Assembly (NCBI GenBank): GCA_021647505.1
Contig: JAKIUN010000038.1
Location: 1-36,378, forward strand
Length of the DNA stretch: 36,378 nt
From: Gammaproteobacteria bacterium
GTDB taxonomy: Bacteria; Pseudomonadota; Gammaproteobacteria; SZUA-152
Reading direction: 5' to 3'
A program made the translations under genes and the position numbers. Of the stretch, positions 4,347-31,223 are shown one piece after another. The notes under the pieces were generated by a model. That model was not told the DNA's origin. It searched no databases and was given only the letters and a program-made list of their open reading frames with translations. Position 1 is the first letter of the stretch, and every line of letters begins with the position of its first letter.

Positions 4347-7058
4347 TTAGGCAGAGAGGTTACGCGGCACGAAGCTCAGGCTATTGAAAGTGCTCTTGTA
4401 CTTGGATTCACCCAGTTTCTTCACCTTGGCGGTACCAAGCTTGTAGTTGTAGTTACCGGTAATGATATCGACCACCGCGCCCTGCAGCGCATTGGTAGGC
4501 TGCCACATATTGAGGAAGTTGGTGAACAACACGCCCTTTTTAATCGCCGGTGTCACCAGTGCCACCGCAGTGACTGCACCCTTACCAAGTTCGATATGCC
4601 CCTCTTTTATCAGGGTGTCGAATTGTAGGTGATTTTTGTAAACGCCCAGGATCGTGTCCTTGAAGTTCGGCACACGTTCGTTATACATCATCACCAGATC
4701 ACCCGACTCGATACCGCGTGCTGCTGCGTCATCCGGATGGATCTCCATGAACTGGGTATCCGCCGGCCAGCGTTGGGCGATATAGGCCCGGCGCTCCGTA
4801 TCATCAAAGCCCGACTGCCAGATTTCATTCATGCGGCCATTGGTGTGCCACAGCTCTCCGTCCTTTGGCTGTAACCAGTACCAATAATCGGAGATCAACG
4901 ACCAGGGATGCTTCTGCAGATTGACCTTGCCGGTCTGGCTGTTGAAGTGGGTGTATTTTTTGCTGTGAAAATTGGCGCCCTGCGGCCCACCCACACCCCA
5001 CTTCTTCTCCATGTCGGCCTCGGTCAGGGTAGTGTCATGCAGACGCTTGGTGCCATGCAGTTCGCCGGTTTGGTAGTTGTAGAAGGTGGGCCCCTGAATG
5101 CCGTCGGTGCCCAGGGAACGGAGCTTTTCGTGCAGTGTGGTTCCCTCGCGATGCGCCGCGACCTTGACCATGTGATAGGCCTTGCGGCTCTTGCGCGAAA
5201 AGCGTGACATCTCTTCCGCCACATCACTGGAGTTCTTCCAGTCATAGCCATCGTAGCCCATACGCTTGGCCATCTGGGCGATGATCCACCAGTCCGGCTT
5301 GGCATTGCCCGGGGCGTCATAGAATTTCGAATACAGGCGCATGCGGCGTTCGCCATTGCCGCGCATGAAGTCTTCCTCACCCCAGGTGGCGGCGGGGAAA
5401 ACGATATCGGCAAAACGACTGCCGATGGGGTCGCGCAGATAAATATCATGATTCCACACCACCATGCCGCCAGAGTCGGTGCGCTTCTTCAGGGTGTCGA
5501 TGATCTCTTGCTTGTCGTGTGAACGCACCTGGTGAGGATTATTGGTCACCATCTGCTCGAAGGCCTGTTGCAGCGACACGGTGCCGGCCATAGCCTGCAT
5601 CCAGGTGGTGCCGATGACGTGCGCCAGACGGGTATGCCCGGACTTCAGCCAACGGTCGGTGTCCAATGGACGCCGGCGTCTGCCGGGTACCTTCTCGGGT
5701 GATTTGTTGCGCGGATAGCTGCCGCCATTCTGACCGCCACGCTGATGACCACCGAAGCGTCCCACCATCTGACCCGGCCGACCACCTGCACCGCAGATTG
5801 TCGCCAGGGAGGCCACGGCATTGGTGTTGGATGTACCTGCGGACCAATAGGCTCCCTTCTCAATACCGAAGGAGGCCTTGATGCGCGAGCCATCGGCCTT
5901 GGGTTTGGCCAGCCACTCGGCCGCCAGACGGATCTTGGCAGCATCGACGCCGCTGATGCGAGCGGCATTCTCCAGCTGGTATTCCTCCTGCGACATCAAC
6001 CATTCCTTGTAGCCTTCAAAACCCCCGGTCTGGAACTTGCCCCAGGTGGTACGCCATTGCCAGGGGGTGTTACGGGTGCCTTGGCCGAAACCGGAATTGG
6101 TTTCCCATTTGTTGTTGACCCACTTTTTGATCCATTCCTCATCCTGCCAGCCGTTCTCGATGACGATACGGGCGATAGCACCCAGCAACGGTGTATCGGT
6201 GCCTGGATAGAGATCGAGGTGCAGGCCAACACCCATTTTATTGGCGTGAGTCATGCCGCCCGTCTCGCGGGGATTGATAAAGATGACCTTCATGCCGCGT
6301 GCAATCGCCGGCATGATCCACTGGGTAAAGATAATGGTCTTGGTCTCGTAGGGGTCGGTACCACCAATCAACAGGGTGTCCGCCGCCCCCCAGTCTTCGT
6401 AGGAGGGGGCGAAATTGTCGAAACCTGCATCGCGATAACCCGGAGTGGATGTAGCCTTGGAGGGCGTATCATGCCAGGTCCAGGCTGCAGTATTGACATC
6501 GCGGAAGGAAAAACGGGTAATCGCGTATGTGTTTTCCAGAAACTGGTAGCCAAAGGTCTTAACGGAATAGGCGTTGGCACCGTGGTTCTTGATAACATGC
6601 TTGCCCACCTCGGCGGCGATATCCAGGGCGAAATCCCAGGTCACCGGTTGCAGCATGCCATTGATGCGTACCAGGGGGTGCTTGAGCCTATCCCGCGTCG
6701 GCTTGTCAGGATTGTAAACCTTCTGCGCAATACATCCGCCGCGGATACTGGCGTCGCCATTCAGGTTAACATACTGAGTGCTTTTGTCGGGCGTAATCAC
6801 CACATGATGGGGACGCCCCTCGTGCATCACCACATTGTGCTGGGTCGGCGCCACCCAGTCTTCCAGGGGAGCCGAGGGAAAATCAATGCCAAAGGCATTT
6901 TCTGACGCCTTGGGGCCACCGCTGGGAGTACTCAGCGGCCAGCGATAGACCTTGTAGCCGCAGGCCACGATGCAATAATCGCAGGCAGTGGTCAGCACGT
7001 CACAATTCTTTGGCGGCAACGGTGTATTGTCTTCAGGGATATAATACTCGGTAGTCAT
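4347..7058 (-). CDS. idrA: Iodate reductase catalytic subunit IdrA (arsenite-oxidase-clade molybdopterin enzyme)
   Basis: The product has 903 residues and belongs to the DMSO-reductase family, arsenite oxidase (AioA) clade. Near the N-terminus C26-x2-C29-x3-C33 is followed by Ser104, exactly 70 residues later. This is the AioA pattern of a 3Fe-4S cluster with Ser in place of the fourth Cys. There is no signal peptide; AioA-type subunits travel with the Tat signal of the Rieske partner. Other family marks are DTLLIGGTDPYETKT, PGTDTPLLGAI, a GGHQRGG pterin-region motif and NGRMNEIWQSGFDD. AioA proteins are usually about 820-830 residues, and the longer product with ENAFGIDFP and SPEKVPGRRRRPLDTDRWL fits IdrA better. 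The decisive context is two di-heme peroxidase genes in the same operon, the signature of idrABP1P2. Known role: periplasmic reduction of iodate. GGAGGG precedes the ATG. Alternative: arsenite oxidase. Confidence 0.88.
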   Translation of the reverse strand: MTTEYYIPEDNTPLPPKNCDVLTTACDYCIVACGYKVYRWPLSTPSGGPKASENAFGIDFPSAPLEDWVAPTQHNVVMHEGRPHHVVITPDKSTQYVNLNGDASIRGGCIAQKVYNPDKPTRDRLKHPLVRINGMLQPVTWDFALDIAAEVGKHVIKNHGANAYSVKTFGYQFLENTYAITRFSFRDVNTAAWTWHDTPSKATSTPGYRDAGFDNFAPSYEDWGAADTLLIGGTDPYETKTIIFTQWIMPAIARGMKVIFINPRETGGMTHANKMGVGLHLDLYPGTDTPLLGAIARIVIENGWQDEEWIKKWVNNKWETNSGFGQGTRNTPWQWRTTWGKFQTGGFEGYKEWLMSQEEYQLENAARISGVDAAKIRLAAEWLAKPKADGSRIKASFGIEKGAYWSAGTSNTNAVASLATICGAGGRPGQMVGRFGGHQRGGQNGGSYPRNKSPEKVPGRRRRPLDTDRWLKSGHTRLAHVIGTTWMQAMAGTVSLQQAFEQMVTNNPHQVRSHDKQEIIDTLKKRTDSGGMVVWNHDIYLRDPIGSRFADIVFPAATWGEEDFMRGNGERRMRLYSKFYDAPGNAKPDWWIIAQMAKRMGYDGYDWKNSSDVAEEMSRFSRKSRKAYHMVKVAAHREGTTLHEKLRSLGTDGIQGPTFYNYQTGELHGTKRLHDTTLTEADMEKKWGVGGPQGANFHSKKYTHFNSQTGKVNLQKHPWSLISDYWYWLQPKDGELWHTNGRMNEIWQSGFDDTERRAYIAQRWPADTQFMEIHPDDAAARGIESGDLVMMYNERVPNFKDTILGVYKNHLQFDTLIKEGHIELGKGAVTAVALVTPAIKKGVLFTNFLNMWQPTNALQGAVVDIITGNYNYKLGTAKVKKLGESKYKSTFNSLSFVPRNLSA

Positions 7059-7154: not shown

Positions 7155-7754
7155 TTACGATTCCAGCAGATTCTTGTGACGGCCAAAGATCAGCCCCAGC
7201 ATGCCCACGGCGTAGATGTTGTCGCCATCCAGTTCCAGCAGTACCTGGGGCAGGCTTTCGAATGCCTGGCCCGAGACCACGATGCCATGTCGTCTCAGGT
7301 CATAGGTCGACAGATGAAGCGGACACTGGCCCAGTATGCGGTGTGGGCCGTCGGCCAAATAGCTGCCCTGCAATGGGCCGCCCTGGTGGGAACAGAGATA
7401 GTTGAAGGCAACCACATCCCGCTTCGGGCCGATGCCGCCACCAGCCTGCACGCCGCCCATCTTGACCACCATGGCGGAAGAGTTAGCCAGCTCATCCGGA
7501 TAATTGAAATCCACCGGTACGTTGTCTTTCAGCTCGCTGAGTTTGGCAATCAGCTTGCGAGGGTAACCCACCACCCGTGCATCTGCCGCCTGTGCGCTGC
7601 CCGGAAATAGCGAGATGCTGATGGTGCTTGCCGCTACGGCCGTGCTGCCACTGTAAAGAAGGAACTGGCGTCGGGTCAGCATAACCTTGTTATGCACCTC
7701 GGCTGAACGCTCCTGCTTCTGCTTGTTCCTCGGTGTGCTTGTATCAGTACTCAT
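7155..7754 (-). CDS. idrB: Iodate reductase Rieske [2Fe-2S] subunit IdrB, Tat-exported
   Basis: 199 residues. A twin-arginine signal (TRRQFLLYSGS, around residues 27-37) is followed by a hydrophobic stretch ending FPGSAQA, so the folded protein would be exported by Tat and carry the catalytic subunit with it. The Rieske ligands are Cys and His of NYLCSHQGG and Cys and His of GQCPLHLSTYD. The positions that form the disulfide in classic Rieske proteins are Gly and Leu here, so there is no disulfide; this is also true of some AioB proteins and usually goes with a lower potential. The end (GQAFESLPQVLLELDGDNIY, GLIFGRHKN) is typical of AioB/IdrB. GGAGG precedes the ATG. It lies 31 bases after the peroxidase gene and upstream of idrA. 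Confidence 0.9.
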   Translation of the reverse strand: MSTDTSTPRNKQKQERSAEVHNKVMLTRRQFLLYSGSTAVAASTISISLFPGSAQAADARVVGYPRKLIAKLSELKDNVPVDFNYPDELANSSAMVVKMGGVQAGGGIGPKRDVVAFNYLCSHQGGPLQGSYLADGPHRILGQCPLHLSTYDLRRHGIVVSGQAFESLPQVLLELDGDNIYAVGMLGLIFGRHKNLLES

Positions 7755-7785: not shown

Positions 7786-9051
7786 TTATTTCGCAGCCTG
7801 TGCCGCCTCAAGTTCAACCAATGTGAACAGTGGCTTGTAGCCCGGCAACCTGGGTTTGACTACCGTGATTTCTTCACCCGTGAAGGCTTCCAAAAAGGCC
7901 AGCAGGTCTTCTTTTTCTTCGTCGCTCAAATTGAGCTTGGTGATCAACGGGGTCTTGGTCTTTGGGTAACTGGTCGTGTTGCCTTCTTCATCAAAACCGC
8001 CACGATCATAGAAGTCGATAACTTCCTCAAGGGTGTAAAACTGGCCCTGCCGCATGTAGGGTGCCGTGAAACTGATATAACGTAAACTGGGAACCCGAAA
8101 CTTGCCTTTGTCCCACTTGTTCTTGTTACGGAAATACAGACCGACATCGTCTTTGACCGTGCGATACAGCTCCTCGGTGGAACCCTTGCCATAGTATTGG
8201 AAGCGGAAGGTAATCTGTGCTAGCCCGTCTTCCAACCACCGCTCTGCCCGGGGGACACCAATGTTGTAGTAGCTTTCATTGCTGGCAAGGGCGCCATTGT
8301 GACAAAGGATACAACGCCCCTTTCCTTCGAACAGCGCCTTGCCACTCACCTGCTGCTCCGTCAGCGCGGAGCTATCACCGAGAAGATACTTGTCCAGCGG
8401 TGTATCGCGTTGCACCAGAGTGCGCTGGTAGGCAGCGATGGCCTTCCAGGCATTGCCGATGGAGGGCCTGGGTTCACCGAAGACCTCATTGAAGCGCTCG
8501 ACGTATCCCGGAATCAGGCGCAGCCGTGCCTCCATGAGGTCATTTTCACCATTACCGGCAACACCACCTTTGGCGGCAGCAGGTGCCTGCGCCTCCAGAG
8601 AGGGAACCGAACCCGCCCAAAACAATTTTTTGTAATAGGCCGCATTGATGATGGTCTGGTTGCCGCGCCAGTGTACGGTACCGGGGTAACCGCGAGAGAA
8701 ATCCTCGGCCCAGGACCAGCCCTGCTCCGGCTCATGACAGGTGGCACAGCTCACCGAGGCATCACCTCCCAGGCGGGGATCGAAGAACAGCAGTTTTCCC
8801 AGCTCAGTCTTGGCCTCTGACATGGGATTGTCGAGTGGAATGGGCGGCGGGCCCAGGGGGGCCAGGGGCGGAATCGCCGCGTCCGGGGCCTTGGCAAACG
8901 TGCCGGCCATGGCGGGGGTCGACTGCACTTGAGACGTCCCGTTATCGGCTGAAACCGGCGGCTTGTCACCCATGGCTGCGGCCGATACCGACAGAGCCGC
9001 TGCGACTGCCGTTGCCATCATCAGAATGGGCGTTTTCTTTAACGAACTCAT
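7786..9051 (-). CDS. idrP1: Di-heme c-type peroxidase of the iodate reductase operon (IdrP, larger copy)
   Basis: 421 residues, CcpA/MauG family. A Sec signal (MATAVAAALSVSAAAMG) precedes a Pro-rich linker to about residue 70. Two CxxCH heme sites are present: CATCHEPEQGWSW near 140 and CILCHNGAL near 250. The family C-terminal motif VPSLRYISFTAPYMRQG and the EEVIDFYDRGG motif are also present. Bacterial members reduce H2O2 using electrons from small cytochromes. In the published iodate reduction model the two peroxidases dispose of H2O2 formed while IdrAB reduces iodate. I name it idrP1 because it adjoins idrB; the P1/P2 assignment is positional only. It lies 16 bases downstream of the other peroxidase gene and is clearly co-transcribed with it. 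Confidence 0.87.
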   Translation of the reverse strand: MSSLKKTPILMMATAVAAALSVSAAAMGDKPPVSADNGTSQVQSTPAMAGTFAKAPDAAIPPLAPLGPPPIPLDNPMSEAKTELGKLLFFDPRLGGDASVSCATCHEPEQGWSWAEDFSRGYPGTVHWRGNQTIINAAYYKKLFWAGSVPSLEAQAPAAAKGGVAGNGENDLMEARLRLIPGYVERFNEVFGEPRPSIGNAWKAIAAYQRTLVQRDTPLDKYLLGDSSALTEQQVSGKALFEGKGRCILCHNGALASNESYYNIGVPRAERWLEDGLAQITFRFQYYGKGSTEELYRTVKDDVGLYFRNKNKWDKGKFRVPSLRYISFTAPYMRQGQFYTLEEVIDFYDRGGFDEEGNTTSYPKTKTPLITKLNLSDEEKEDLLAFLEAFTGEEITVVKPRLPGYKPLFTLVELEAAQAAK

Positions 9052-9067: not shown

Positions 9068-10198
9068 TTAGTTGGGGACATCCAGCCAATTGGCAATAGC
9101 TTCGTATTCTAGTGGATAAGGTTCAGTCCACACGTGCCGGCTGCTGGTCAGTGGTTTGCCAGACAACGCGAGCAGGAAGGCCACCAAGTCTTTTTGCTCC
9201 TGAGGATTCAAATCCAGGGGTTTTATTCTGGTGTCTTTGTTGCGGTCGTTATCTCCGCCCCGGTTATAAAATGCCACGACCTCCGGTAGTGTCTTGATCA
9301 TGCCGTTGTGCATGTAGGGCGCGGTGTATTTCAGCTCACGCAGACTGGGGGTAATGAACGTACCCATGCCGGTTCCATCCGCCTTGTGCTTCTGGATATA
9401 GGCGCCCGGGTCACGCTTGAGATTCATGTAATTCCCAATACCCATAAAGTCGGCATAAGCAATAAAGGCCTGATGACGCGCAGTATCGAGAAACACATCA
9501 AAGTTTTCCTTGACACCCGTGTTATGTGGCTGGCCGTCGGTAAACATAGGCCCGCTGTGACAGGCGACGCAGCCCCCCTTCCCCTTGAACAGCTGCAAAC
9601 CACGTTTTGCATTGGTTGACATCTTGCCGCTGTCAAAAGGCGCGCCTTCCGAGTTCAGGGTTTTCAGGTATTCAGGGATAGCCTTGCGGGCACCACCGTT
9701 GGATGGTTCACCCAGTCCCGCAGCCTTGAACATCGTCACATACAGAGGATCCTGTTTAAGGCGCTCCTGCATGATGCGCATGTCCATGTTCATGATGTAA
9801 TCCTCGGTAATCATGCCGCGGGTCACATCATTGAGGTTGGTGCCGATACGTCCGTCATGCATCCATACCGTTTTATGGGCGGCATTGATCACGCTGGGGG
9901 CGTTACGGAAATGCTTGTTACCGGGATAACCCTCAGACAGGGCATCCGGACTGGCAAAACCATATTCCGGCTTATGACAGGTTCCGCAGGAGATGGCGGC
10001 ATCTCCCGACAGGCGCTTGTCGAAGAACAGGCGCTTGCCCAATTCCGCCCTGGCCTTGTTAACTTTAAGAGTCGCTAGCGGGCCAATATCGTCGCCTGCG
10101 ACAGCGATGGGATTCGCTAGTATCAAACCCATACCCAGGGCTGTTACGAGGACCCCTCTTTTGCTTAAAAATGGTCTTGTGGTCATCATGCCGGCCAT
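9068..10198 (-). CDS. idrP2: Di-heme c-type peroxidase of the iodate reductase operon (IdrP, first gene of operon)
   Basis: 376 residues, CcpA/MauG family, exported by a Sec signal (GVLVTALGMGLILANPIAVAG). Heme sites are CGTCHKPEYGF near residue 72 and CVACHSGPMF near 211. The Ca-site and C-terminal motifs (TPSLRELKYTAPYMHNG, then LPEVVAFYNRGGDNDRNKDT) match short periplasmic peroxidases. It shares only moderate identity with the neighbouring 421-residue paralogue, mainly around the heme sites and the TAPYM motif, so the pair is not a recent duplication. GAGGAGGAATAGGTA directly precedes the ATG, a very strong ribosome site. It is the promoter-proximal gene, with a sigma54-type promoter about 100 bases upstream. 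Confidence 0.87.
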   Translation of the reverse strand: MAGMMTTRPFLSKRGVLVTALGMGLILANPIAVAGDDIGPLATLKVNKARAELGKRLFFDKRLSGDAAISCGTCHKPEYGFASPDALSEGYPGNKHFRNAPSVINAAHKTVWMHDGRIGTNLNDVTRGMITEDYIMNMDMRIMQERLKQDPLYVTMFKAAGLGEPSNGGARKAIPEYLKTLNSEGAPFDSGKMSTNAKRGLQLFKGKGGCVACHSGPMFTDGQPHNTGVKENFDVFLDTARHQAFIAYADFMGIGNYMNLKRDPGAYIQKHKADGTGMGTFITPSLRELKYTAPYMHNGMIKTLPEVVAFYNRGGDNDRNKDTRIKPLDLNPQEQKDLVAFLLALSGKPLTSSRHVWTEPYPLEYEAIANWLDVPN

Positions 10199-10405: not shown

Positions 10406-10630
10406 CTGTCAACCGTAGAGGCGACTTTATTCACCCCGCTGCGAAACATCAGGGGTAGCGACCGGGCTGTCCGCGCCGTATCGGTTACGGCACGACACTG
10501 GCGGCGATTCCCGCTGGTGGCGCCCAGGAAGGTCGCTCCGGCGGCAGGGTACACTGCCGTAGGTTCCCCCGGAGTAAGACCCTCTGCCGCTTGTCGGAAT
10601 GTTGTCATTATCTCTCTGCCCGCCTACCGC

Positions 10631-13039
10631 TCAGGCAATCGCCTTTCTTTGCCGGCGAACCAGCAGCAGACCCATCAGAAATACACCACCAGCAATACCC
10701 AGCGGCAGACCATAGACCTTCACGGGATCGGCCTCGGCGGGCAATACCAGCCAATACCAGCTGGTCAGGGTATGTTTCGACCCGACCTCGCCATTACTGC
10801 CATCCCAGTCAGCGAAGGATACCGGGATAAATTCACCCTCAGTAAAGCTCACATCGCCACTGTCACCGCCGTTGCGAGGACGCTTCATCAGTACGCTCCA
10901 CTGGCCATTGTCCCAGTGGCTCTGTACCGAAAGACTATCATCCCCCTCACGAGGCACTATTTTTTGGTTAGGCCCCGAGGCATCCAGCAAGGCACCTCGG
11001 GAGGCCACCGCAGGTTCCACGCTGCCCGCATTCCAGTACCACATGGTGGTGGGATGGGAGGCATCGCCATGGCGGTACAGGGGTTTGACCACCACGGGCT
11101 TGGTCTTGAATGAATCCTGTTTGGGGAACTGGATCGCAAGGGCATCGGAATACAGGGTCAGTTTACTGTCCTGTATCTGTGTTGACACTGCTTCCCCCGG
11201 ACGGCTGTCGGTACGATCATCTACTTTCATTAAGAAGGCGATCTCATCCGCGTTGTACAATACCTGCACCGTAATCGAGTCATTCAGTGGCGTAAACAGC
11301 CGGTCTTCCTTAATGATATTCGGCACCAGGGGCACGGTCACCGCAGGCACCGTATCCCACACCGCGTCGGTCAAACTGTCCGGCAAGGCGCCCTCGATCT
11401 TTGCCGCGCGTAATACCGGCTCATCGCTGGGAGCAACGGACTTGTTGCGCAGGCTATAGACATAATTTGCAATGTGCCAGCGATCTTCCAGGGAAACAGG
11501 GTCTTTGTTGCCTTCCTCCGTCGCCCGGTGTGCCGGCATGGGTGTACCCGGCAGGCCGATAGACAGACGTGTGTAGATATTTTTAATGGTCTGTTCGCGG
11601 CTTTTTTCATTCTCGCCAGACACATTGGTGACACGCCAGGTCCAGGGTTTGGTGAGATTGCGCGGCCAGAGCCGGTCACCCCAGTCATCTTCCAACTTTT
11701 TACCGGAGGTGATATTGCCGCGACCGCTAAGACCGTGACACTTGCCGCAGACCTTTTCAAAAACGGGTTTACCCTTGGCTACAGATTCCTCGCTGAAAGG
11801 AACCTGAGATGCAACGGGTTCCGTGTTGGTTATCTTTTGAAAATCTGTTTTCAGATAGCGGCCATCATCATCGAAAAATTCATCATCGGCGTCTTCCGGC
11901 GCCCAGGCCGCCGTAATATCAAACCCCTTGATTACGGGAATCAGGCTGCGAATCTGCTTGTCACTCAACAACGTGCTCCACGCGGGCATCGCCGTCCCGT
12001 TCAGACCATGCTTAATGACGTTGAACAAATCGTCATCGCTTGGCAGCTCGGTGCCCGGTGAGTTTTTGTACTTGAACAACGAGAGGGTAAAGTCACGCGC
12101 CTTGGGATACATGAGATCGGTGGCAACACCATCTCCCGCTCCCTGCTCGCCATGGCACACCTGGCAGCGTTGCACATAAACGTCGACACCCATTTGTTGC
12201 TTACGACGGACACGAACCTTGGATGCTATGCCACTCACTGCCTTGGAGATTTCCGCATCCCACATGCGTGGCACCTGGCCAACATAGTCATAAAGAAAGG
12301 TAATCACTTCCCAGGTCTCATTCTCGTTCAGCATCTCGTGCCACACGGGCATGGCGGAATTCCACGGCGTACCCTCCTTGGGCAGGCCCGGACCACCGGT
12401 CGAGATACGCCAGAACAGATAGGCCTCCTGCAACTGGGCAATGGTACCGACATCCTGAAAATTGGCTGGCTGGGGACTGAAACCCAGGGCGTAATGGCCC
12501 TTTCCGTCCAGTAGGTCGCCATGACAGAAGAAACAGTTTTTGTAATAGACGTCACGCCCCGCCTCGACGACCTCTTCATAGGCCTCCCAGCCCTTATCTT
12601 CATCCTCGGTCATGGTTTTCAGAATCTGTTCGCGCAGCGGGTTTTCCAACTTGGATAAATTGTAGCTTTTGCCGAAGACACGTAATGAGCCCGGCGGCGC
12701 AGGATGTACCTGACGCAGTTCTACCGGCGCATCCATGGAGGGCTTGACAAAGCCATAGGTGGTGTAACCAACGAGAGCCGGAATAGCAATCAAAAAACCC
12801 CAGCGAACAACTGCCAGCCTTGGTTCCCTAAGCACCGCCAGGATGGGCGAATTGAACTCTTTCCAACGCGTCTCATCAAAGGAAAAATACAACAGCACAC
12901 TGGCAATGGTGATGATCATGTACTGCACCATTAGTGAACTGGGCAGCAAGGGCGGGAAAGCATTATCAAAAATCAGATAGGCGATAATGACGACCAACAC
13001 GGCCTGCCAGAATGCAGGAATTTTAATGCCTTTCATCAT
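10631..13039 (-). CDS. Membrane-anchored multiheme cytochrome c with ethylbenzene-dehydrogenase-gamma-like domain
   Basis: 802 residues. The N-terminus has about three membrane segments (FWQAVLVVIIAYLIF, MIITIASVLLYFSF, WGFLIAIPALVGYTTYGF). Three c-type cytochrome domains follow, with heme motifs CFFCH (about 168), CQVCH (about 291) and CGKCH (about 431). From about 550 to 770 there is an EB_dh-like domain (GALPDSLTDAVWDTVPAVTV, then FTPLNDSITVQVLYNADEIA), the fold that holds a b heme in the gamma subunits of ethylbenzene dehydrogenase, DMS dehydrogenase and (per)chlorate/selenate reductases. A final membrane helix (LPLGIAGGVFLMGLLLV) anchors the C-terminus. The bulk should be periplasmic. 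It is the last gene of the CydA-like operon, 76 bases after the tri-heme gene. The inferred role is electron relay between the membrane module and a periplasmic molybdoenzyme, most simply IdrAB. Confidence 0.85.
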   Translation of the reverse strand: MMKGIKIPAFWQAVLVVIIAYLIFDNAFPPLLPSSLMVQYMIITIASVLLYFSFDETRWKEFNSPILAVLREPRLAVVRWGFLIAIPALVGYTTYGFVKPSMDAPVELRQVHPAPPGSLRVFGKSYNLSKLENPLREQILKTMTEDEDKGWEAYEEVVEAGRDVYYKNCFFCHGDLLDGKGHYALGFSPQPANFQDVGTIAQLQEAYLFWRISTGGPGLPKEGTPWNSAMPVWHEMLNENETWEVITFLYDYVGQVPRMWDAEISKAVSGIASKVRVRRKQQMGVDVYVQRCQVCHGEQGAGDGVATDLMYPKARDFTLSLFKYKNSPGTELPSDDDLFNVIKHGLNGTAMPAWSTLLSDKQIRSLIPVIKGFDITAAWAPEDADDEFFDDDGRYLKTDFQKITNTEPVASQVPFSEESVAKGKPVFEKVCGKCHGLSGRGNITSGKKLEDDWGDRLWPRNLTKPWTWRVTNVSGENEKSREQTIKNIYTRLSIGLPGTPMPAHRATEEGNKDPVSLEDRWHIANYVYSLRNKSVAPSDEPVLRAAKIEGALPDSLTDAVWDTVPAVTVPLVPNIIKEDRLFTPLNDSITVQVLYNADEIAFLMKVDDRTDSRPGEAVSTQIQDSKLTLYSDALAIQFPKQDSFKTKPVVVKPLYRHGDASHPTTMWYWNAGSVEPAVASRGALLDASGPNQKIVPREGDDSLSVQSHWDNGQWSVLMKRPRNGGDSGDVSFTEGEFIPVSFADWDGSNGEVGSKHTLTSWYWLVLPAEADPVKVYGLPLGIAGGVFLMGLLLVRRQRKAIA

Positions 13040-13115
13040 TCACCCCGTACCAATAAAATCGGTTGATAGATTTTTTCACTAGCTATTAAAAGGTCTGCTT
13101 TTATCAAGACACCCA

Positions 13116-14252
13116 TTACTTGCGCTCCCACAGAAAAGCCACCAATGCATCCAATTGCTCCTCACTCATTTGTTCGGAATAATTGAGCGGCATCACTCCC
13201 GAGGGAAAGCCTTTGGCGATAACGGCATTGGGGTCAATAATACTCTGGCGAATCTCTTCGGCATTCAATCGCGAGCCGATACCATCCAGGCCGGGGCCAA
13301 GCTTGCCGCCGCTACCTAATATGGCGTGACAGGCTTGACAACCAAAACTACTGATCATTGACTCAGCACTACTATCAACGGCACCTTCTGAAGACGTGGC
13401 CGCCGGGGGTGTCGCGGTAGATTTTCCATGACTCGCCAGATAGTCCACCAGGATGTCCAGCTCTTTCACCGTCATCTGTTCAGCGAGATCCTGCGGCATC
13501 ACACCGGGAGGAAAGCCCTCGGCAATCACCTCATCCGGGGCGATAATGCCCTGGCGGATTTCTTCGCGGGTGAAGTGACCGGCCATCTGCTCCAGACCGG
13601 GCCCGAGATCACCACCACTGCCCAATATCACGTGGCAAGCCTGACAACTGTATTTGGCAACCACCTCCTCAATGGTGCCGGCGGATTCCACCACTTCCGG
13701 GCTGGTGGGGTCCGCCGCCGGCGCCTCCGTCGGCAGCGACACCGTTACATCGTATCCATCCTTGGCCTGCATAAAGGCAATGATGGCGTTGATCTCTATT
13801 TCCGAGAGTTCGATCGGCGACTTGTCAACGGCCGGCATGGGCGAGATGGTGTCGTTACTTCCCTTTTTGCCATAGTCTTTCACCACATAGACACCGGGAT
13901 CGACCAGAGACTCATACAGGTAAGATTCGACATCGGTGGCCGGGCCCTTGTAGCGCTCATCCTGCAAATGTTGCTTGGCCACCTCCACCATGTTGATCGC
14001 CAGAATATCCGGGGCGCGACCAAGGTCGTTATGACACAGAGCACAGGTTCCCTTGCCTGAAAAAAGGGTCTCGCCCAGGGCGACATACGAGTCCATGGTC
14101 AACGCCCCCAGATCCACTTCCTGATCGACAGGGGCTTCACCTTCCACCTGTGGCAGCAGATTGGCGACCAGGGTGAATAACAGTACCAGCGCCAGACTGA
14201 AACCCATGCTTTTTACCAGCACACCGCCAGGGGCTTTTATCTCATTGTTCAT
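13116..14252 (-). CDS. Tri-heme cytochrome c, membrane-anchored
   Basis: 378 residues. One N-terminal membrane helix (SMGFSLALVLLFTLVANLL) is followed by three mono-heme cytochrome c domains: CALCHND near residue 70, CQACHVILGSGGDLGPGLEQ near 201 and CQACHAILGSGGKLGPGLDG near 302. The second and third domains are near copies (GSGG.LGPGL, then EEIRQ.I..P..VI..GFP.GVMP), so the gene grew by internal duplication. Met in the GVMP motifs is the likely axial ligand. Its ATG overlaps the stop of the CydA-like gene (ATGA), so the two are translationally coupled and very probably form one complex. It may receive electrons from the CydA-like subunit. Confidence 0.88.
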   Translation of the reverse strand: MNNEIKAPGGVLVKSMGFSLALVLLFTLVANLLPQVEGEAPVDQEVDLGALTMDSYVALGETLFSGKGTCALCHNDLGRAPDILAINMVEVAKQHLQDERYKGPATDVESYLYESLVDPGVYVVKDYGKKGSNDTISPMPAVDKSPIELSEIEINAIIAFMQAKDGYDVTVSLPTEAPAADPTSPEVVESAGTIEEVVAKYSCQACHVILGSGGDLGPGLEQMAGHFTREEIRQGIIAPDEVIAEGFPPGVMPQDLAEQMTVKELDILVDYLASHGKSTATPPAATSSEGAVDSSAESMISSFGCQACHAILGSGGKLGPGLDGIGSRLNAEEIRQSIIDPNAVIAKGFPSGVMPLNYSEQMSEEQLDALVAFLWERK

Positions 14253-16114
14253 GCGGCCTCTCCTGCCTTTTTAGTCACGGACAATGGTGGCGCCTGTTTG
14301 GTATTACTGAGATTGGCAATCCAGAAGATAAACAGGACAAAGAGCACAAACATGACCGTAACAATCGTCATCATGTTTCCTGCATAACCAATAGTAGGTA
14401 TAAAATTATCCGGCGAGTTATCTTTCATTACGGTATACACATGCCAGTGGGTACGCACCGAAGAGCGCACATAACCCATCAGCGCCATCAACCAAGTGAA
14501 GGCGATAGGCAGTGCAAACAAGGCGTACTGGGAGCGATTACTGACCTGCCCCCAGAAGGATGGCAAAGTCTTGGCCTTACGATACATGAAGGCATCGATC
14601 ACGACTCCACTGATAATGACCACTAGAGTGGACACCACCTGCGTGACACTTGCTCCGACCTTGTACACGGTATTAGTGAAGTAACCATAATAGACGCCGG
14701 CAAAGATGATATTGACGATAGCCACGACATAGATCGCCACCATCAGGGCATTACCCGCCTTCTCCCACGAGACCGTGGCAACCTTGTCCGAACGCCGATA
14801 AATCTGGAAAGACAAAAAGGTGAAAATAAGCATCAGATTCACGGCGATGTTCTTCGCCGGCATGATCCCCAGCGGGCCCAGCAAGTGGTGATGACTACCA
14901 CCCAGGGCGGCAATTTCACCCGAGGTGAGAATCAAGGTATGTGGCGTCACCCAGATCAGAAAACAGATGACCAAGACCACAGCGATATATTTGATCATCC
15001 CCTGGTAACGCTTTGATCCTTCAGTGCGTGACATGCCAGACCACAAATAGTAGTTACCTGCCATAAGAATGGTACCGATCAATACCGCCTGGACGATAAA
15101 CAACCAGGCCAGAATACCGCCCATGGCAGTAATGCCCATCTGCTGCGAATAGGCGTAGATCTCGGCCATCAGCCAATAACCGGCAAAGGGCAGGGGCAGG
15201 AAGGCGAGAATAGCGATGAAGTTGGAGGTATAGCCCATCCAGTCATAATGGGCGCGATCCTCGGCGGTTCGGGCGGCCAGGCACTTGTAGGCCGCATAGG
15301 CCCCCACCACCGCACCACCAAAGGCGATATTAGCGATAAACCGGTGCAGATTGATGGGATTCCACAATGGCCCCTTCATCACCTCCCAGATGTTGCCGAT
15401 GACCGCGCCGACTTCATTGACCCCTGAGGGCGCCATCATGAAAGTGGCCCAGGAGTTGGCCATCACCATCAGCGTGCCGCCGACGCCATTCAATAACAAA
15501 CCAATGGAAATATGTACCCACTTGGCATTGCCATAGCGCATCGCATCCCAGCCGTAGTAATAGATATAAAGCAAAATGCTTTCCATGAAGAACAGCATGG
15601 CGTAGACCAGCATCTGAGCACCGAAGGCCTGCATCAGATAGGCCATTAAATCGGGATAGAGCAGGAATAGTGCCAACGCCAGAGTGCCGCCGAACAGGGC
15701 GGTGATGGAATAGGCGGTAATACTGATCTTCATGAACTCATGGGCCATGTCATCATAGCGCGCATCGCCGGTGGACTTGCCCAGCAGTTCAATCACCAAC
15801 ACAAAAAGCGGTACCGCCAGCACCAGAGCACCGAAAAACAGATGCATTTGTGCGATGATCCAGACAATAGAGCGGCTACTGGTACCAACGTCTGGATAAT
15901 CCTCCCGGGCCGGCCTGGGGGCCGGTCTCAACTTCAGTTCCTGCGCGACATCGGCACCTTCCGCCGTGGCCACCTCTTCGGCCGCAACCTCACTCGCAGC
16001 GGCCTCGGGTAGCCAGTGGCTCGGCGTCATGTCCCCCGACCATAAAAAACCCAGTACGGCAATCACCAACAGAGACAGCAGTATCGGTGACGAGAAATTT
16101 CTTGTTTCCTTCAT
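14249..16114 (-). CDS. CydA-like (cytochrome bd subunit I-related) membrane protein, diverged
   Basis: 621 residues from the ATG at 16114, chosen because GGAG lies just upstream; an open frame of 638 residues starts at 16165. After an N-terminal helix and an Ala/Glu-rich periplasmic stretch (35-75) come about 12-13 membrane helices. Features of CydA are visible: His91 in IIAQMHLFFGALVLAVP (like the b595 ligand), FFMESILLYIYYYGWD with Glu178, His201 before MANSWATFMMAPSG (compare NSWMQTP), and GYWLMAEI with Glu319 where CydA has GW..(A/T)E. Missing are the GRQPW quinol motif (here YAYSQQM) and the first acidic residue of the heme d pair (Val170 or Tyr171). No CydB gene is present. It could move electrons from quinol to the cytochrome c proteins rather than reduce O2. 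Family known, function inferred. Confidence 0.82.
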   Translation of the reverse strand: MKETRNFSSPILLSLLVIAVLGFLWSGDMTPSHWLPEAAASEVAAEEVATAEGADVAQELKLRPAPRPAREDYPDVGTSSRSIVWIIAQMHLFFGALVLAVPLFVLVIELLGKSTGDARYDDMAHEFMKISITAYSITALFGGTLALALFLLYPDLMAYLMQAFGAQMLVYAMLFFMESILLYIYYYGWDAMRYGNAKWVHISIGLLLNGVGGTLMVMANSWATFMMAPSGVNEVGAVIGNIWEVMKGPLWNPINLHRFIANIAFGGAVVGAYAAYKCLAARTAEDRAHYDWMGYTSNFIAILAFLPLPFAGYWLMAEIYAYSQQMGITAMGGILAWLFIVQAVLIGTILMAGNYYLWSGMSRTEGSKRYQGMIKYIAVVLVICFLIWVTPHTLILTSGEIAALGGSHHHLLGPLGIMPAKNIAVNLMLIFTFLSFQIYRRSDKVATVSWEKAGNALMVAIYVVAIVNIIFAGVYYGYFTNTVYKVGASVTQVVSTLVVIISGVVIDAFMYRKAKTLPSFWGQVSNRSQYALFALPIAFTWLMALMGYVRSSVRTHWHVYTVMKDNSPDNFIPTIGYAGNMMTIVTVMFVLFVLFIFWIANLSNTKQAPPLSVTKKAGEAA

Positions 16115-16230
16115 GCCCCTATCTCCACAATCTTGAATCGGGTGTTGAATACAGCGTCCAGGCACAGTAGCCCGACACGTTGAGCCCTGCGCACATTTGC
16201 ACGCCGAAGTAAAATTTTTGTCATCATGAT

Positions 16231-16359
16231 TTACTGTGACGGTGTTAAATCAATATTCAGAGGCAAGCCCTGCATATTCATGATCAAATGATCCAATCCA
16301 TAGAAAAAGATCAGCACAACAGCGAAGGCAACTAACCAGACTTGTAGATTATTTCCCAT
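16231..16359 (-). CDS. Small single-span membrane protein, likely subunit of the CydA-like complex
   Basis: 42 residues from the ATG at 16357-16359: MGNNLQVWLVAFAVVLIFF, then YGLDHLIMNMQGLPLNIDL. One membrane helix occupies about residues 5-25. The upstream sequence AGAGAAG gives a ribosome site; a longer frame to 16455 exists but would start without one and overlap the neighbour's end. It lies between another tiny membrane gene and the CydA-like gene on the same strand. By position it recalls CydX/CydS of bd oxidases or CcoQ of cbb3 oxidases, but I see no clear sequence match to them. Confidence 0.65.
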   Translation of the reverse strand: MGNNLQVWLVAFAVVLIFFYGLDHLIMNMQGLPLNIDLTPSQ

Positions 16360-16429
16360 TTTCTTCTCTTGATCTTTACGCGTGAAAGAGACTGTTCGCC
16401 ATGGCATGGTGAACACGAACCCTGCCTTA

Positions 16430-16591
16430 TCAACCATGCTGTATTTCAACGCCACCGGAATAAATCAGCAGCCACCAGAAAAATACCAACATCAGAACCA
16501 AAATGGTCCAGAACAGTTTCGGCCCCCAGGAGGAGCCATCTTGAGACCCTGTAGTCTGGGTCTTGTCGTCTTGTTTCCCCGATGCAGTCAT
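16430..16591 (-). CDS. Small single-span membrane protein, first gene of the CydA-like operon
   Basis: 53 residues from the ATG at 16589-16591, preceded by GGAG six bases upstream; a second ATG two codons earlier overlaps that ribosome site. The N-terminal 25 residues are polar (ASGKQDDKTQTTGSQDGSS), followed by a Trp-rich membrane helix (LFWTILVLMLVFFWWLLIY) and a short SGGVEIQHG tail. It starts about 109 bases downstream of a predicted sigma54 start and precedes another micro membrane gene by 70 bases. The product is unrecognised; a structural subunit of the membrane complex is the simplest reading. Confidence 0.65.
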   Translation of the reverse strand: MTASGKQDDKTQTTGSQDGSSWGPKLFWTILVLMLVFFWWLLIYSGGVEIQHG

Positions 16592-16710
16592 TGTCATCTC
16601 CACTCGTCGTCGCTACTGAAATCCGCCGTATTGCCAGAAAAATCCGCTCGTCGATATTTTCGGCAGGCCCGTCCATCACTAGTTGATCCATCTGCCCTAG
16701 CCCTAGCCAT

Positions 16711-16726
16711 AGCAACATCCAGGCCA
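16711..16726 (-). promoter_or_regulatory. Sigma54 (-24/-12) promoter of the CydA-like operon
   Basis: The minus strand reads TGGCCTG-GATG-TTGCT, with a perfect -12 TTGCT, and differs from the consensus -24 by two bases. GG-N10-GC spacing is exact. The predicted start is near 16700, about 109 bases before the first small gene. It shares its TGGCCTG element with the idr promoter. Confidence 0.72.
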
Positions 16727-16826
16727 TCCCTCTCAAAACACTTGAAAAGGCATAGCTAGCGCGGCTTTTCTCTTCATGACCCCAAGCAACAGGCCCGGGC
16801 CCGTGGGCCTGAAACCGGCCAAAAAA

Positions 16827-16910
16827 TGAATGCAATGTTCATTTGCGAGGGATAATCGGAACAAAATGATGCATTGGACACAACGAGTGATACATTGAAC
16901 GAATCATTCA
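16827..16910. promoter_or_regulatory. Shared activator-binding region between divergent sigma54 promoters
   Basis: Two TGAA-N7-TTCA inverted repeats lie at 16827-16841 (flanked as AAATGAA...TTCATTT) and 16896-16910. Between and overlapping them are direct repeats TGATGCATTGGAC (16867-16879) and TGATACATTGAAC (16888-16900), offset by 21 bp, i.e. two helical turns. The block is 100-185 bases upstream of the leftward promoter and 140-220 bases upstream of the rightward one, suited to enhancer sites for an NtrC-type activator. The rest of the 550-base gap between 16592 and 17141 contains no gene I can support. Confidence 0.55.
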
Positions 16911-17048
16911 CTACTGATTCAATATGCCCTGAAAATGAAACATTACGTACAACTCCAGGGCCGGTGCGCCTGTCGCCATGGCCCACAAGCCGGCCGGAGG
17001 CCCATACAAGACGGGAATGGGGCCAGCTTTTCAGGGGTATTCAGAACT

Positions 17049-17064: not shown

Positions 17065-17141
17065 ATCCATCAGGCTGACGCGATGTGAAACAGGGCCCTG
17101 AAACCGGAACACATGCAATTTTATCTTTATGGGATATCAAC

Positions 17142-19619
17142 GTGACCAGCCTTCAAAAAACAACGGATTCAAAACGAGATATGGCCGACAAACAAGACGT
17201 AGAGCTAGCCCTGCAGCGGCTGCTCAGCAAGGGTGATGAACTGGATCGTTGTTGCGCCTGCCGCTCGCTCGGCGTACTGGGGAGCAGTGATGCCGTACAA
17301 CCACTGGTCGAACATCTGCGCGATGACGACATCGATGTGTGTATCGATGCCGCCGAATCCCTGGGACTGCTGGGTGAGCCAGCCGCCGTGGCGCCCCTGA
17401 TCGAATCCCTGCACAATGACCCCGATGGTGAAATCAGGGTCTCTGTCGTCGAGGCGCTGGGGCGCCTGGGGGGAGAACAGGCCGTTTCAGCACTGCTGTC
17501 ACTGCTGACGTCCATGCCGGAAGATACCGACTGGGATGATGACGATGCCTGGGACAGCAACTGGGACATCCAGCGCAAGGCCGTGCAGGCATTGGGTTAC
17601 CAGCGCGTCGCCAAGGCCGTTGCCCCCCTCACTGCGCTGCTGGACGACGAAGACGCCCAGGTCGACGAAACCGACAGCCTGCTGGCCCTGGCGCGAATTG
17701 GTGGTGCAGGTGAAGAGCTTGTCATCCAGCGCCTGCAGAACGGCTCGACACGCGAACGCCGGCGTGCGGCCCATGCCTTGGGTCAGCCCTGCTCCCCCAC
17801 TGGCGCCCATGCCCTGGGCCGTGCCTTGCAAGATCCGGAGCCGGAAGTCCGCGCCGTCGCCGCCGAGGCGCTCGCCAATAACGGCCAAGGTCGCTACCTG
17901 GGCGCCCTGCTCCTGCTGTTGCGTGATCCCGCCGACGAGGTACGCGAAACCGCCCTGAAGATGATTGACAAGCTCAGTTCGCATGTCAGTGCCGAGCTCG
18001 ATGTACAACAGTTGTTACCCCTGTTGAGCGATCCCAGCACCCGGGTGCGCGCCGCCGCGCTGCACGTCTTGCAGGGACACTTGCCTGACCCGCTTGAAGC
18101 CGAAACCCAGGCATGCCTAGTCGGCTTGCTGAGCGATTCCGAGCCACTGGTTGCCGCAGCCGCCCTCCCACACGCCCTGCGCCTGGAGGGCCCGGACATT
18201 GACGGCATCCTGCTCAATCTGCTGGCCGACGAACAACGGGATCCCGCCGTTCGACAGCAGGCCGCACTAGCCCTGGGCAATCGTCCACAAACCTCAGAGG
18301 AAATACTCACGGCCCTGGACTGCACGATCAATGACCATGAACCCATCGTACGCTGGGCAGCATTGCAGGCCCTGATGGCCTGCCATAAAAAACAGCCCGA
18401 TACGGCGACTCTTGATGCGGCTCTCGATACAACTCTTGATACACAGGACGAAGCTGAGGCGGAAAATGAACCCGCCGCCCCGCTGGCCCGTATTCTCGCC
18501 GCCCTGTATGGCGAAACAGACACGGCCACAGCAACGATAGCACCTACCGAAACCACCGGAGACGATCCAGTCCCCGAGTCACCAGAGACGACGTCTCCTG
18601 TCGACATTTCTGACCCCCATGAAGAAACCGAGGCATCAAGCAGCAACGAGACCGCACCTGAATCGACCCTCGACGCCATCCTCCTGGCCAATACAGAATA
18701 CGAGCAACTCGATGAAAAGAAAAAAACCATCACCACGGATGAACTGCCCGAACTGCCCGCCGGGGAAGACGAAGCCTTCCAAGACTTCTATGACATCCTC
18801 GCCCGGCAGCGGCATAACAAGAAAAAGTTCTACCGTGGCAAAAATATCGATATCGAGGCCGATATCCGCCTGCTCAGCGCCCGCGTCCTCGGCGAATGCA
18901 GCCAGCCCGAGGTGGTCGAGGTACTGAGAAAGACCATGCTTGAGGACAATCCCGAACTCCAGCAAGAGGCCATTGACGCCCTGGCGCGCCTGACGCCAGA
19001 TACCCCCGGGCTGACAGAAACACTGGGGCCACTGAACAGTCTTCTGCATATGGGAACATCCGAACTACGAGTCGCCAGCGCACGCGCACTGGGCGCCCTC
19101 GGCAACCTGGCCTGCCTGCCGAATCTGCAGGAAAGCCTGGAGGATGAAAACCCTCTGGTACGCAGTCAATCGGTCATGGCCATGGCGCAGATCCTGGAAC
19201 GACACACTGACAAGCTTTTATGGGAACAGCATGCCGACACGCCTGCCGCCATCCCTGTCGCCAGCGCACGGGCACAAGATGAGGCCGACACCATCGAGCA
19301 GGCATTGCACGCCATGTCCGAACGCCTGGCCGACAGCGATGTAGGCGTCAGCAAGGCCGCCGCCCTGTCCCTGGCAAAACTGAACCGGCTGCTGTCCGCT
19401 GGCAAGACCCGTGATGACATCATCGAGCGTCTCATTACCGCCGGCTTTGTCGGCGAGGGACGGCAGGCACGGGAGATGGGCCAGGCGCTGCGCGTCCTCG
19501 ACCCCGGCGCAGCCAGCAACACACTGATACAGCACCTGGATACATTATCATCGAGCATAGAACGACAATTTGTGCTGGAAATGCTGGAAGAGGTCTTCCG
19601 CCCATCACAGGCCGCATAG
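17142..19619 (+). CDS. HEAT-repeat (PBS lyase-like) scaffold protein
   Basis: About 825 residues from a GTG at 17142; the open frame reaches back to a GTG at 17085, but that would leave only about 10 bases of leader after the predicted start, and an ATG at 17181 (MADKQDVELALQRLLSKGD) is an alternative. The protein is built of about 30-residue helical repeats (pattern LG.....AV..L...L.D....VR..AA.ALG), in one block up to about residue 440 and another from about 580 to the end. An acidic, Thr/Ser/Pro-rich linker separates them. There is no signal peptide or membrane helix, so it is cytoplasmic. Such proteins serve as docking surfaces, and PBS-lyase-type HEAT proteins also handle tetrapyrroles. 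Its position beside heme-related genes suggests an assembly role, not proven. Confidence 0.85.
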   Translation: MTSLQKTTDSKRDMADKQDVELALQRLLSKGDELDRCCACRSLGVLGSSDAVQPLVEHLRDDDIDVCIDAAESLGLLGEPAAVAPLIESLHNDPDGEIRVSVVEALGRLGGEQAVSALLSLLTSMPEDTDWDDDDAWDSNWDIQRKAVQALGYQRVAKAVAPLTALLDDEDAQVDETDSLLALARIGGAGEELVIQRLQNGSTRERRRAAHALGQPCSPTGAHALGRALQDPEPEVRAVAAEALANNGQGRYLGALLLLLRDPADEVRETALKMIDKLSSHVSAELDVQQLLPLLSDPSTRVRAAALHVLQGHLPDPLEAETQACLVGLLSDSEPLVAAAALPHALRLEGPDIDGILLNLLADEQRDPAVRQQAALALGNRPQTSEEILTALDCTINDHEPIVRWAALQALMACHKKQPDTATLDAALDTTLDTQDEAEAENEPAAPLARILAALYGETDTATATIAPTETTGDDPVPESPETTSPVDISDPHEETEASSSNETAPESTLDAILLANTEYEQLDEKKKTITTDELPELPAGEDEAFQDFYDILARQRHNKKKFYRGKNIDIEADIRLLSARVLGECSQPEVVEVLRKTMLEDNPELQQEAIDALARLTPDTPGLTETLGPLNSLLHMGTSELRVASARALGALGNLACLPNLQESLEDENPLVRSQSVMAMAQILERHTDKLLWEQHADTPAAIPVASARAQDEADTIEQALHAMSERLADSDVGVSKAAALSLAKLNRLLSAGKTRDDIIERLITAGFVGEGRQAREMGQALRVLDPGAASNTLIQHLDTLSSSIERQFVLEMLEEVFRPSQAA

Positions 19620-19713: not shown

Positions 19714-20448
19714 ATGAACAAGGCACTCACGGTATTTACCCTATTTGCAGCAGCCAGTCTGCCGTTAACGGCCGCAGCCTACAAGGTCGTGGATGTCGCC
19801 AATGGCGGTACCATCACTGGAAAAGTGAACTTTTCGGGAACCGACCCGGCGCCAAAAATCTACGCCATCACCAAGGACACTGATGCCTGCGGCACCGGTG
19901 ACCGCGAAATTGACTTTGTCCGCGTCACCAACGGCGCCCTCAATGACACCGTGGTCTATCTGAAAAAGGTAAAGTCCGGCAAGGATTTCCCGGCCGACAT
20001 CAATGATCTCGTGATCGACCAGAAAAAATGCGACTTCCAGCCCTTCCTCTCGGTGATGAAAAACAAGGACAAGTTCGCGGTGCACAACTCAGACCCGGTG
20101 CTGCACAACATCCATACCTACGAACTCATCGGCAAGGCACGCAAGACCGTCTTCAACATCAGTCAGCCACCGGAAATCACCGTTATCAACAAGACCGTCA
20201 AGCTCAAGCGTGGCACCGTCATGAAACTGGAGTGCGATGCCCACGACTTCATGCACGGTTTTGTCTTCGTGGCCAAAAACCCCTACTTTGCCGTCGTTAA
20301 AGAGGACGGCAGCTTCGTCATCGATAACGTCCCCCCCGGCAACTACAAGATTGCCGCCTGGCACGGTTCACTGGGCGAGAAAAAGGGCAAGGTCACCGTG
20401 GATGCTGGTGGCAAGACCTCTATCGATTTCAACTATAGCGGCAAATAA
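19714..20448 (+). CDS. Exported cupredoxin-like protein with C-terminal carboxypeptidase-regulatory-like domain
   Basis: 244 residues. A Sec signal (VFTLFAAASLPLTAAA) is followed by a beta-sandwich region. Possible type 1 copper ligands are the His of VHNSDPVLHNIHTY near 125 and the Cys, His and Met of LECDAHDFMHGFVF near 172-182. That spacing resembles plastocyanin-like proteins annotated near methylamine utilisation genes. The C-terminal part (GSFVIDNVPPGNYKIAAWHG) is the typical turn of carboxypeptidase-regulatory-like domains. An AAAGGAG site precedes the ATG. It would be a soluble periplasmic protein, and if copper binds, it could shuttle electrons to or from the cytochromes encoded next door. 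Copper ligation is an inference from residue pattern only. Confidence 0.78.
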   Translation: MNKALTVFTLFAAASLPLTAAAYKVVDVANGGTITGKVNFSGTDPAPKIYAITKDTDACGTGDREIDFVRVTNGALNDTVVYLKKVKSGKDFPADINDLVIDQKKCDFQPFLSVMKNKDKFAVHNSDPVLHNIHTYELIGKARKTVFNISQPPEITVINKTVKLKRGTVMKLECDAHDFMHGFVFVAKNPYFAVVKEDGSFVIDNVPPGNYKIAAWHGSLGEKKGKVTVDAGGKTSIDFNYSGK

Positions 20449-20782: not shown

Positions 20783-20905
20783 AGAAAAATAGCACAGCGC
20801 AACAGAGAATGGTGCCGATGTAAGCCATGAAAAATCGATAATGACCTTTATCAAGAGCCTGTCGCACGACCGGATTTGACATTAATATACACAAGGGAAA
20901 GATGG

Positions 20906-23113: not shown

Positions 23114-23117
23114 CACG

Positions 23118-26773: not shown

Positions 26774-27109
26774 ATGGCCACACCGAAACAGGCCAACCTT
26801 CCGCAAGCCGCCGCACCCTATCTTTTTCTGCGTATTACCGGGGCGGTATTATTGGTCATGCTGCTAATTTCGGTCTGGGCAAGGTGGTACGGCCATCAAG
26901 TCTCCCTGCCACGTTACTGCGAGAACCCACAGAGCACATTGCAACATCTCGAAAAGGTTATCGAGGAAAAACGTCCTGCCGGCGATGAAGCCCGCCGCCC
27001 CTACATTGTAGCCGCCAAGATACTCTTTCTCCTACCACGTCATTTAGAAGAAGGACAGGCCGCCTATCTCAGCCGTATCCGCACCTACATCCAGGATACC
27101 TGCCGGTGA
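26774..27109 (+). CDS. Small membrane protein upstream of the sensor kinase
   Basis: 111 residues from the ATG at 26774 (GGAG nine bases upstream; a TTG at 26741 gives a longer frame). One membrane helix (LRITGAVLLVMLLISVWARWY, about 19-39), then a region with Cys residues (LPRYCENPQ and the terminal DTCR). The segment LLPRHLEEGQAAYLSRIRTYI is amphipathic. The stop overlaps the GTG start of the histidine kinase (GTGA), so it is translationally coupled to it and may be a sensory accessory. No family recognised. Confidence 0.7.
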   Translation: MATPKQANLPQAAAPYLFLRITGAVLLVMLLISVWARWYGHQVSLPRYCENPQSTLQHLEKVIEEKRPAGDEARRPYIVAAKILFLLPRHLEEGQAAYLSRIRTYIQDTCR

Positions 27110-31160: not shown

Positions 31161-31223
31161 ATGGATTCGCGTCATTCCCTCCACGAGTACGCTGATCGCA
31201 CTCATAGAAAAAGAAGGCTGAGC

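Follow-up and report, generated by a model that had tools for sequence, protein, structure and literature searches.

A CydA-like protein without a neighbouring CydB, encoded with c-type cytochromes beside iodate reductase genes: a candidate cytochrome c-linked bd-like reductase of a gammaproteobacterium

The whole stretch of DNA analysed here, called the window, has 36,378 nucleotides (contig JAKIUN010000038.1, from a gammaproteobacterium of the SZUA-152 lineage) and carries a module of five minus-strand genes around a relative of CydA, followed by the genes of the iodate reductase Idr. In the direction of transcription the module starts with micro-protein 1 (16430-16591, about 54 amino acids, further in-frame starts at 16597 and 16603) and micro-protein 2 (16231-16359, 42 amino acids), each with a single transmembrane helix. 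As each recurs in 51 of 80 related loci (a biased sample of closest relatives only, the linkage statistics given below resting on class-wide counts) with a sharp conserved motif, WGpklF...LvFFwWLlIYsgGV and FYglDh.iM.mQGLPLN, respectively, they are not chance open reading frames. Then comes the CydA-like protein (14249-16114, 621 amino acids; PF01654, 65 bits), which is bd-like with about 14 transmembrane helices and no quinol-site residues. Its stop codon overlaps as ATGA with the start of a membrane-anchored c-type cytochrome (13116-14252), called tri-heme in the initial annotation. Three CxxCH motifs are indeed found at residues 70, 203, and 305 of this copy, most relatives having two. The last gene (10631-13039) encodes an 802 amino acid fusion of a mono-heme membrane cytochrome c with a di-heme cytochrome c, an EB_dh domain of the NxrC/EbdC-like kind, and a C-terminal transmembrane helix. 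The EB_dh domain had been recognized before, to which three heme c motifs (CxxCH at 169, 292, and 431) and transmembrane segments at both the N-terminal and the C-terminal end have to be added. NxrC and EbdC are the nearest relatives of this domain, and its residue 637 (domain at 10634-11422) is glutamine in 73 of 73 sequences, at the position which holds a methionine in NxrC according to a phmmer alignment; whether the domain would ligate a heme b is uncertain.

All five reading frames thus lie where the initial annotation had placed them. Its statement that there is no cydB agrees with the open reading frames of the window, among which no CydB-like one was seen, a genome-wide CydB search not having been made. 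Canonical CydA is absent from the host genome, which beyond the window encodes just one more CydA-like protein, a paralog on a different contig. Directly downstream of the module and on the same strand follow idrP2 (9068-10198) and idrP1 (7786-9051), both of the MauG/di-heme peroxidase family, idrB for the Rieske subunit (7155-7754, AioB-like), and idrA for the molybdopterin subunit (4347-7058, AioA/IdrA family). The nearest of them, idrP2, is a partner of Idr, and the four genes make up the full idrABP1P2 set of the published cluster (PMC8692401).

In a profile comparison residues 80-286 of the CydA-like protein align with residues 8-215 of E. coli CydA (probability 97.7, E 1.8e-12), the remainder yielding no reliable alignment to canonical CydA. 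H91 corresponds to H19 of the E. coli protein, E178 to E107, H201 to H126, and H257 to the b558 ligand H186. The position of E99 is taken by Y171, so that the acidic pair E99/E107 is found as Y171 and E178. All five residues are invariant across 38 relatives. This bears out the retention of His91, Glu178, and His201 which had been noted from the sequence, as well as the loss of the GRQPW motif and of one acidic residue of the heme d pair; the glutamate numbered 319 is in fact E318, also invariant, to which no canonical counterpart was assigned. For K252 and E257 of the canonical quinol site no lysine or glutamate counterpart occurs in any near register among the 38 aligned relatives; around the place of these Q-loop residues lies the stretch Y322-A336, which is nearly invariant in the family and carries no charge. 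An AlphaFold2 model (predicted local distance difference test score, pLDDT, 74; predicted template modelling score, pTM, 0.76) shows about 14 membrane helices. Its good structural matches are CydA chains only (VIA Z 20 to 23), with 7ose_A as the best one (VIA Z 22.8, 350 aligned residues, root mean square deviation 4.1), and subunits of alternative complex III come next with Z 12 to 15. A CydA fold, the heme ligands of the N-terminal core, and the absence of the canonical quinol site are well supported for this protein.

The genes around idr were described as poorly conserved in a published survey (PMC8692401), where the CydA-like module was not found mentioned, and a literature search found no work joining bd-like proteins with idr. 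Among 369 genomes of the class of the window, the CydA-like protein is found in 16 and an IdrA-like protein in 15, with 11 having both; for the 240 genomes of a second class, which is that of the alphaproteobacterial locus L077, these numbers are 8, 9, and 5. Taken together, 24 genomes have the CydA-like protein and 16 of them also IdrA, versus 8 of the 585 genomes without it (odds ratio 144, Fisher p ~3e-20, uncorrected for shared ancestry), a few of the IdrA matches, those near 50% identity, being possibly arsenite oxidase-like and some of the compared genomes incomplete. The link to Idr proposed in the initial annotation is supported by these counts well above chance, and the set was not found to occur mostly without a periplasmic molybdoenzyme. 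In a set of 49 genomes, picked mostly for the lack of a complete idr in the stretch fetched, 38 contain IdrA. The module adjoins idr in both alpha- and gammaproteobacteria, with a gene order which differs between the two. One culturable strain carrying both is Sedimenticola hydrogenitrophicus (L069). There are also genomes in which idrA lies on a contig other than that of the module, and genomes with the module and no IdrA. At one locus (L111:3-5975, genome G014), the module lies beside genes for the beta subunit, the chaperone, and the gamma subunit of a dimethyl sulfoxide (DMSO)-type-II enzyme of the Nxr/Clr/Ser kind, in a genome with no IdrA match. The host of the window has a second IdrA-like protein (53%) on its contig C97 (L100:881-4401), which is preceded by a Rieske partner with no idrP1 or idrP2 in the 5.3 kb seen; it looks like an arsenite oxidase.

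A natural deletion is offered by G064, a genome of the same genus which is 100% complete by tool estimate. It is collinear with the window and has an uninterrupted IdrA with 93% identity, and lacks 10436-17027 of the window, that is the five-gene module and its flanks (positions 13580-13775 of its locus L106 stand against 10435-17028). Because related species have the module at this place, its loss from G064 is the simpler reading, and since idr remained intact, Idr is independent of the module there. Two plus-strand genes of the window stay with idr in G064, one for a HEAT-repeat protein (17085-19619), probably a partner of Idr, and one for a beta-sandwich protein resembling CarboxypepD_reg (19714-20448). 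Both had been considered as parts of the module, were rejected as such for this reason, and are assigned to Idr.

Also missing from G064 are two genes of the tetrapyrrole type which in the window follow on the plus strand and which track the module across genomes. The first (20876-23113) encodes universal stress (Usp) domains and four PCP_red domains, PCP_red being the domain at the C-terminal end of subunit B of protochlorophyllide reductase. The second (23070-25142) encodes a radical SAM/SPASM protein of the NirJ/AhbD kind (CNLACEHC) with three PCP_red domains, in which the CxxxCxxC motif and the SPASM domain are present and which scores below the curated cut-offs of its nearest families (NirJ2 303 of 500 bits, AhbD 294 of 500 bits). 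They are adjoined, here and in many other loci, by a gene for a flavin adenine dinucleotide protein of the HemY-type protoporphyrinogen oxidase family (25243-26661; TIGR00562, 257 bits, curated cut-off 97.85). The families of the two PCP_red genes act on tetrapyrroles, as judged from the literature (PMC7242693) and from their own family matches. Of 61 genomes selected for their content, 35 have the CydA-like protein, 8 IdrA only, and 18 neither. The Usp/PCP_red gene was found in 32, 0, and 0 of these, respectively (p ~3e-14), and the radical SAM gene in 31, 0, and 0 (p ~2e-13); the HemY-like gene was outside this genome-wide search. In G228 and at L077, L079, and L082 the two genes come immediately after the module, in the same orientation. 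Other purposes of this cassette were considered and rejected: as an accessory of Idr it should not be missing from all 8 IdrA-only genomes, as a general feature of these lineages not from all 18 genomes with neither gene, and the making of heme d1 for nitrite reductase does not account for it as 12 of 32 cassette genomes have no strong cytochrome d1 match and 8 genomes have d1 without the cassette. The host carries several cytochrome d1-family matches together in a nir-type cluster (contig C60, 2858-11257), which suggests denitrification. Work joining PCP_red with bd-like proteins was not found in the literature search.

The best explanation of these data, to be held tentatively, is that the module encodes a reductase of the bd-like type which is linked to cytochrome c, probably contains a modified heme in its active site, and would share periplasmic cytochromes with Idr. 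The CydA-like core would exchange electrons with its own c-type cytochromes and not with quinol at the canonical site, and would reduce a small oxidant at a high-spin heme site. Cytochromes of its own in the operon and the lack of quinol-site residues, which are likewise absent from the bd-like protein of Nitrospina (PMC3578206), argue for the cytochrome c link. The most likely oxidant would be O2 at low concentration, and peroxide or some other oxidant arising in iodate reduction is a further possibility. Low O2 as substrate would fit the report that cells of Roseovarius azorensis did not reduce iodate under aerobic conditions, which its authors read as oxygen sensitivity of Idr (PMC11445184). 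The periplasmic arm of cytochromes and EB_dh domain may serve as an electron hub common to the module, IdrAB, and IdrP1/P2, and the micro-proteins probably have a structural role as small, CydX-like subunits of the complex. The genes of heme-modifying type which travel with the module suggest a modified heme in the CydA-like core, which the radical SAM, PCP_red, and HemY-like proteins would make or install. Somewhat more doubtful is the wider proposal that these neighbours form a dedicated pathway to a modified heme other than d1 for CydB-less bd-like enzymes, which would be a separate cytochrome c-linked class, coupled here to iodate respiration. The initial annotation had assumed that O2 is not reduced; with the core ligands kept, this does not follow from the loss of E99. 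The CydAA' of an archaeon was reportedly found by Murali et al. to be active with b-type hemes only, and heme d would therefore be dispensable for O2 reduction in this superfamily.

Several points weigh against this explanation. E99 is lost, and the C-terminal half of the CydA-like protein could not be reliably aligned with canonical CydA. The anammox bacterium Kuenenia has conserved relatives of these genes (PMC3578206), and as O2 reduction would be out of place there, at least some members of the family do something else. The host genome already has three COX1-family matches, and the CydAA' pairing requires a divergent partner CydA, which is apparently absent from it. The modified heme, finally, is deduced from gene families and co-occurrence.

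According to the scheme originally proposed, the CydA-like protein oxidises quinol, here then at a non-canonical site, and passes the electrons through the cytochromes to IdrAB. Its strong linkage to idr and the same-strand order would suit such a role, extra helices at the place of the Q-loop in the AlphaFold2 model could form another quinone site, as has been suggested for Nitrospina (PMC3578206), and Kuenenia, which carries related genes, is an anaerobe (PMC3578206). The region of K252 and E257, however, is without a charged residue, a bc1-type cytochrome b as the ordinary route from quinol to cytochrome c is present in 8 of 8 genomes examined, and idr is kept without the module in G064 and in other IdrA-only genomes. 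This quinol-to-Idr route has lost its main support and is considered rather unlikely. Electrons might also flow in the opposite direction, the module working as a reverse alternative complex III which would take electrons from a periplasmic enzyme or cytochrome of high potential and drive them to the quinone pool. This has been proposed for the version of nitrite oxidisers beside the nitrite oxidoreductase NXR (PMC3578206, PMC6606698), and the DMSO-type-II genes at L111 are in line with it. As Idr has been shown to reduce iodate in Roseovarius, uphill flow would have no evident purpose here, and with quinone-site residues absent as well it appears improbable.

The module and idr might, on the other hand, be mere neighbours which are inherited together in hosts they have in common, namely low-oxygen sulfur oxidisers and marine alphaproteobacteria. 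The clean absence of the module beside an intact idr in G064, and the genomes mentioned above which have the module without IdrA or with idrA on another contig, speak for this. Adjacency in alpha- and gammaproteobacteria despite the differing gene order and the very strong co-occurrence make it quite improbable.

Further along the window a PAS histidine kinase and a sigma-54 response regulator (27106-31160), with relatives near the module or idr at L042, L050, L052, L102, and L105, are probable regulators. The response regulator is followed by a moaA-like gene (31161-32207), and a moaA relative is also found beside IdrA at L104 (G125). A search of a plasmid collection for relatives gave no CydA-like match and one idrA, located on a megaplasmid of Vibrio whose annotation was not usable.

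Proteobacteria with Idr-linked versions may be easier to manipulate, and could help to clarify what bd-like proteins do in nitrite oxidisers and anammox bacteria. The genomic link of the CydA-like protein to the radical SAM/PCP_red genes leads to a direct, testable proposal for its heme cofactor, and for iodate reduction a conserved partner can now be named which was not reported in the published idr survey (PMC8692401).

Compared to canonical E. coli CydAB, the fold and the N-terminal heme ligands are shared, and the present system differs in lacking GRQPW, K252/E257, and a CydB encoded in the operon, and in having a tyrosine for E99 and extra helices. The OR-N family, CydA/CydAA' (Murali et al. 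2021, cited in PMC10839748 and PMC12342949), has in common with the present system the CydA superfamily, the core ligands, the lack of a quinol site, and associated cytochromes c, and its enzymes are believed to work with cytochrome c (PMC10839748). Unlike CydAA', the host has two CydA copies of one type without the divergent partner type seen in G228 and at L077-L082. In G228 (L102:12884-18639, L103:728-5817) and at L077, L079, L081, and L082 two CydA-like types, one of about 725 amino acids with an insertion, occur in one cluster, each with its own cytochromes and EB_dh protein, and in G228 idr belongs to the same cluster; these are candidates for a CydAA' pair. The second copy of the host (contig C44, L083:2150-7298) is a whole, unfused module with a CydA-like protein of 58% identity, a di-heme cytochrome, a mono-heme membrane cytochrome, a di-heme EB_dh protein, and a possible relative of micro-protein 2, and is preceded by mono- and di-heme cytochromes. 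It indicates that the 802 amino acid protein arose by fusion of the mono-heme membrane cytochrome with the di-heme EB_dh protein.

The closest likeness is to nitrite oxidisers. The alt_NxrC_2 protein of Nitrospira moscoviensis has two heme motifs and a single transmembrane helix, and its gene is grouped with bd-like_3 and the genes of two membrane cytochromes c (PMC6606698). Homologous genes accompany NXR in Nitrospina and Kuenenia, the bd-like protein of Nitrospina having 14 helices and no quinol-site residues (PMC3578206). The module agrees with this description in its CydA fold with core ligands, about 14 transmembrane helices, lack of quinol residues, cytochromes c, and NxrC/EB_dh protein with a transmembrane helix. 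Common to all these sets are a CydA-like protein without CydB or quinol-site residues and with about 14 transmembrane helices, two membrane cytochromes c, an NxrC/EB_dh protein with one transmembrane helix and two heme motifs, and a link to a periplasmic molybdoenzyme. In a tree of 89 sequences, made by a quick method, with long branches present and rows G228_q, G014_q, and G218_q not included, the window protein falls into a large, mostly fused-type proteobacterial clade which adjoins the Nitrospirota and Nitrospinota copies L063 and L068. As part of the tentative explanation given above, the product of the five genes would be a variant, associated with Idr, of the bd-like complex known from nitrite oxidisers. 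As a kind, the gene set picked out in the initial annotation is no novelty, the combination of a bd-like protein, c-type cytochromes, and an NxrC/EB_dh protein being already known from nitrite oxidisers and anammox bacteria. Unlike in the nitrite-oxidiser and Kuenenia sets, the molybdoenzyme here is IdrAB, a single fusion protein takes the place of mono-heme cytochrome and EB_dh protein, and there are two micro-proteins in addition; the radical SAM/PCP_red pair accompanies the module here, nitrite oxidisers not having been checked for it. What is new is a fused, micro-protein-bearing variant which is strongly tied to iodate reductase.

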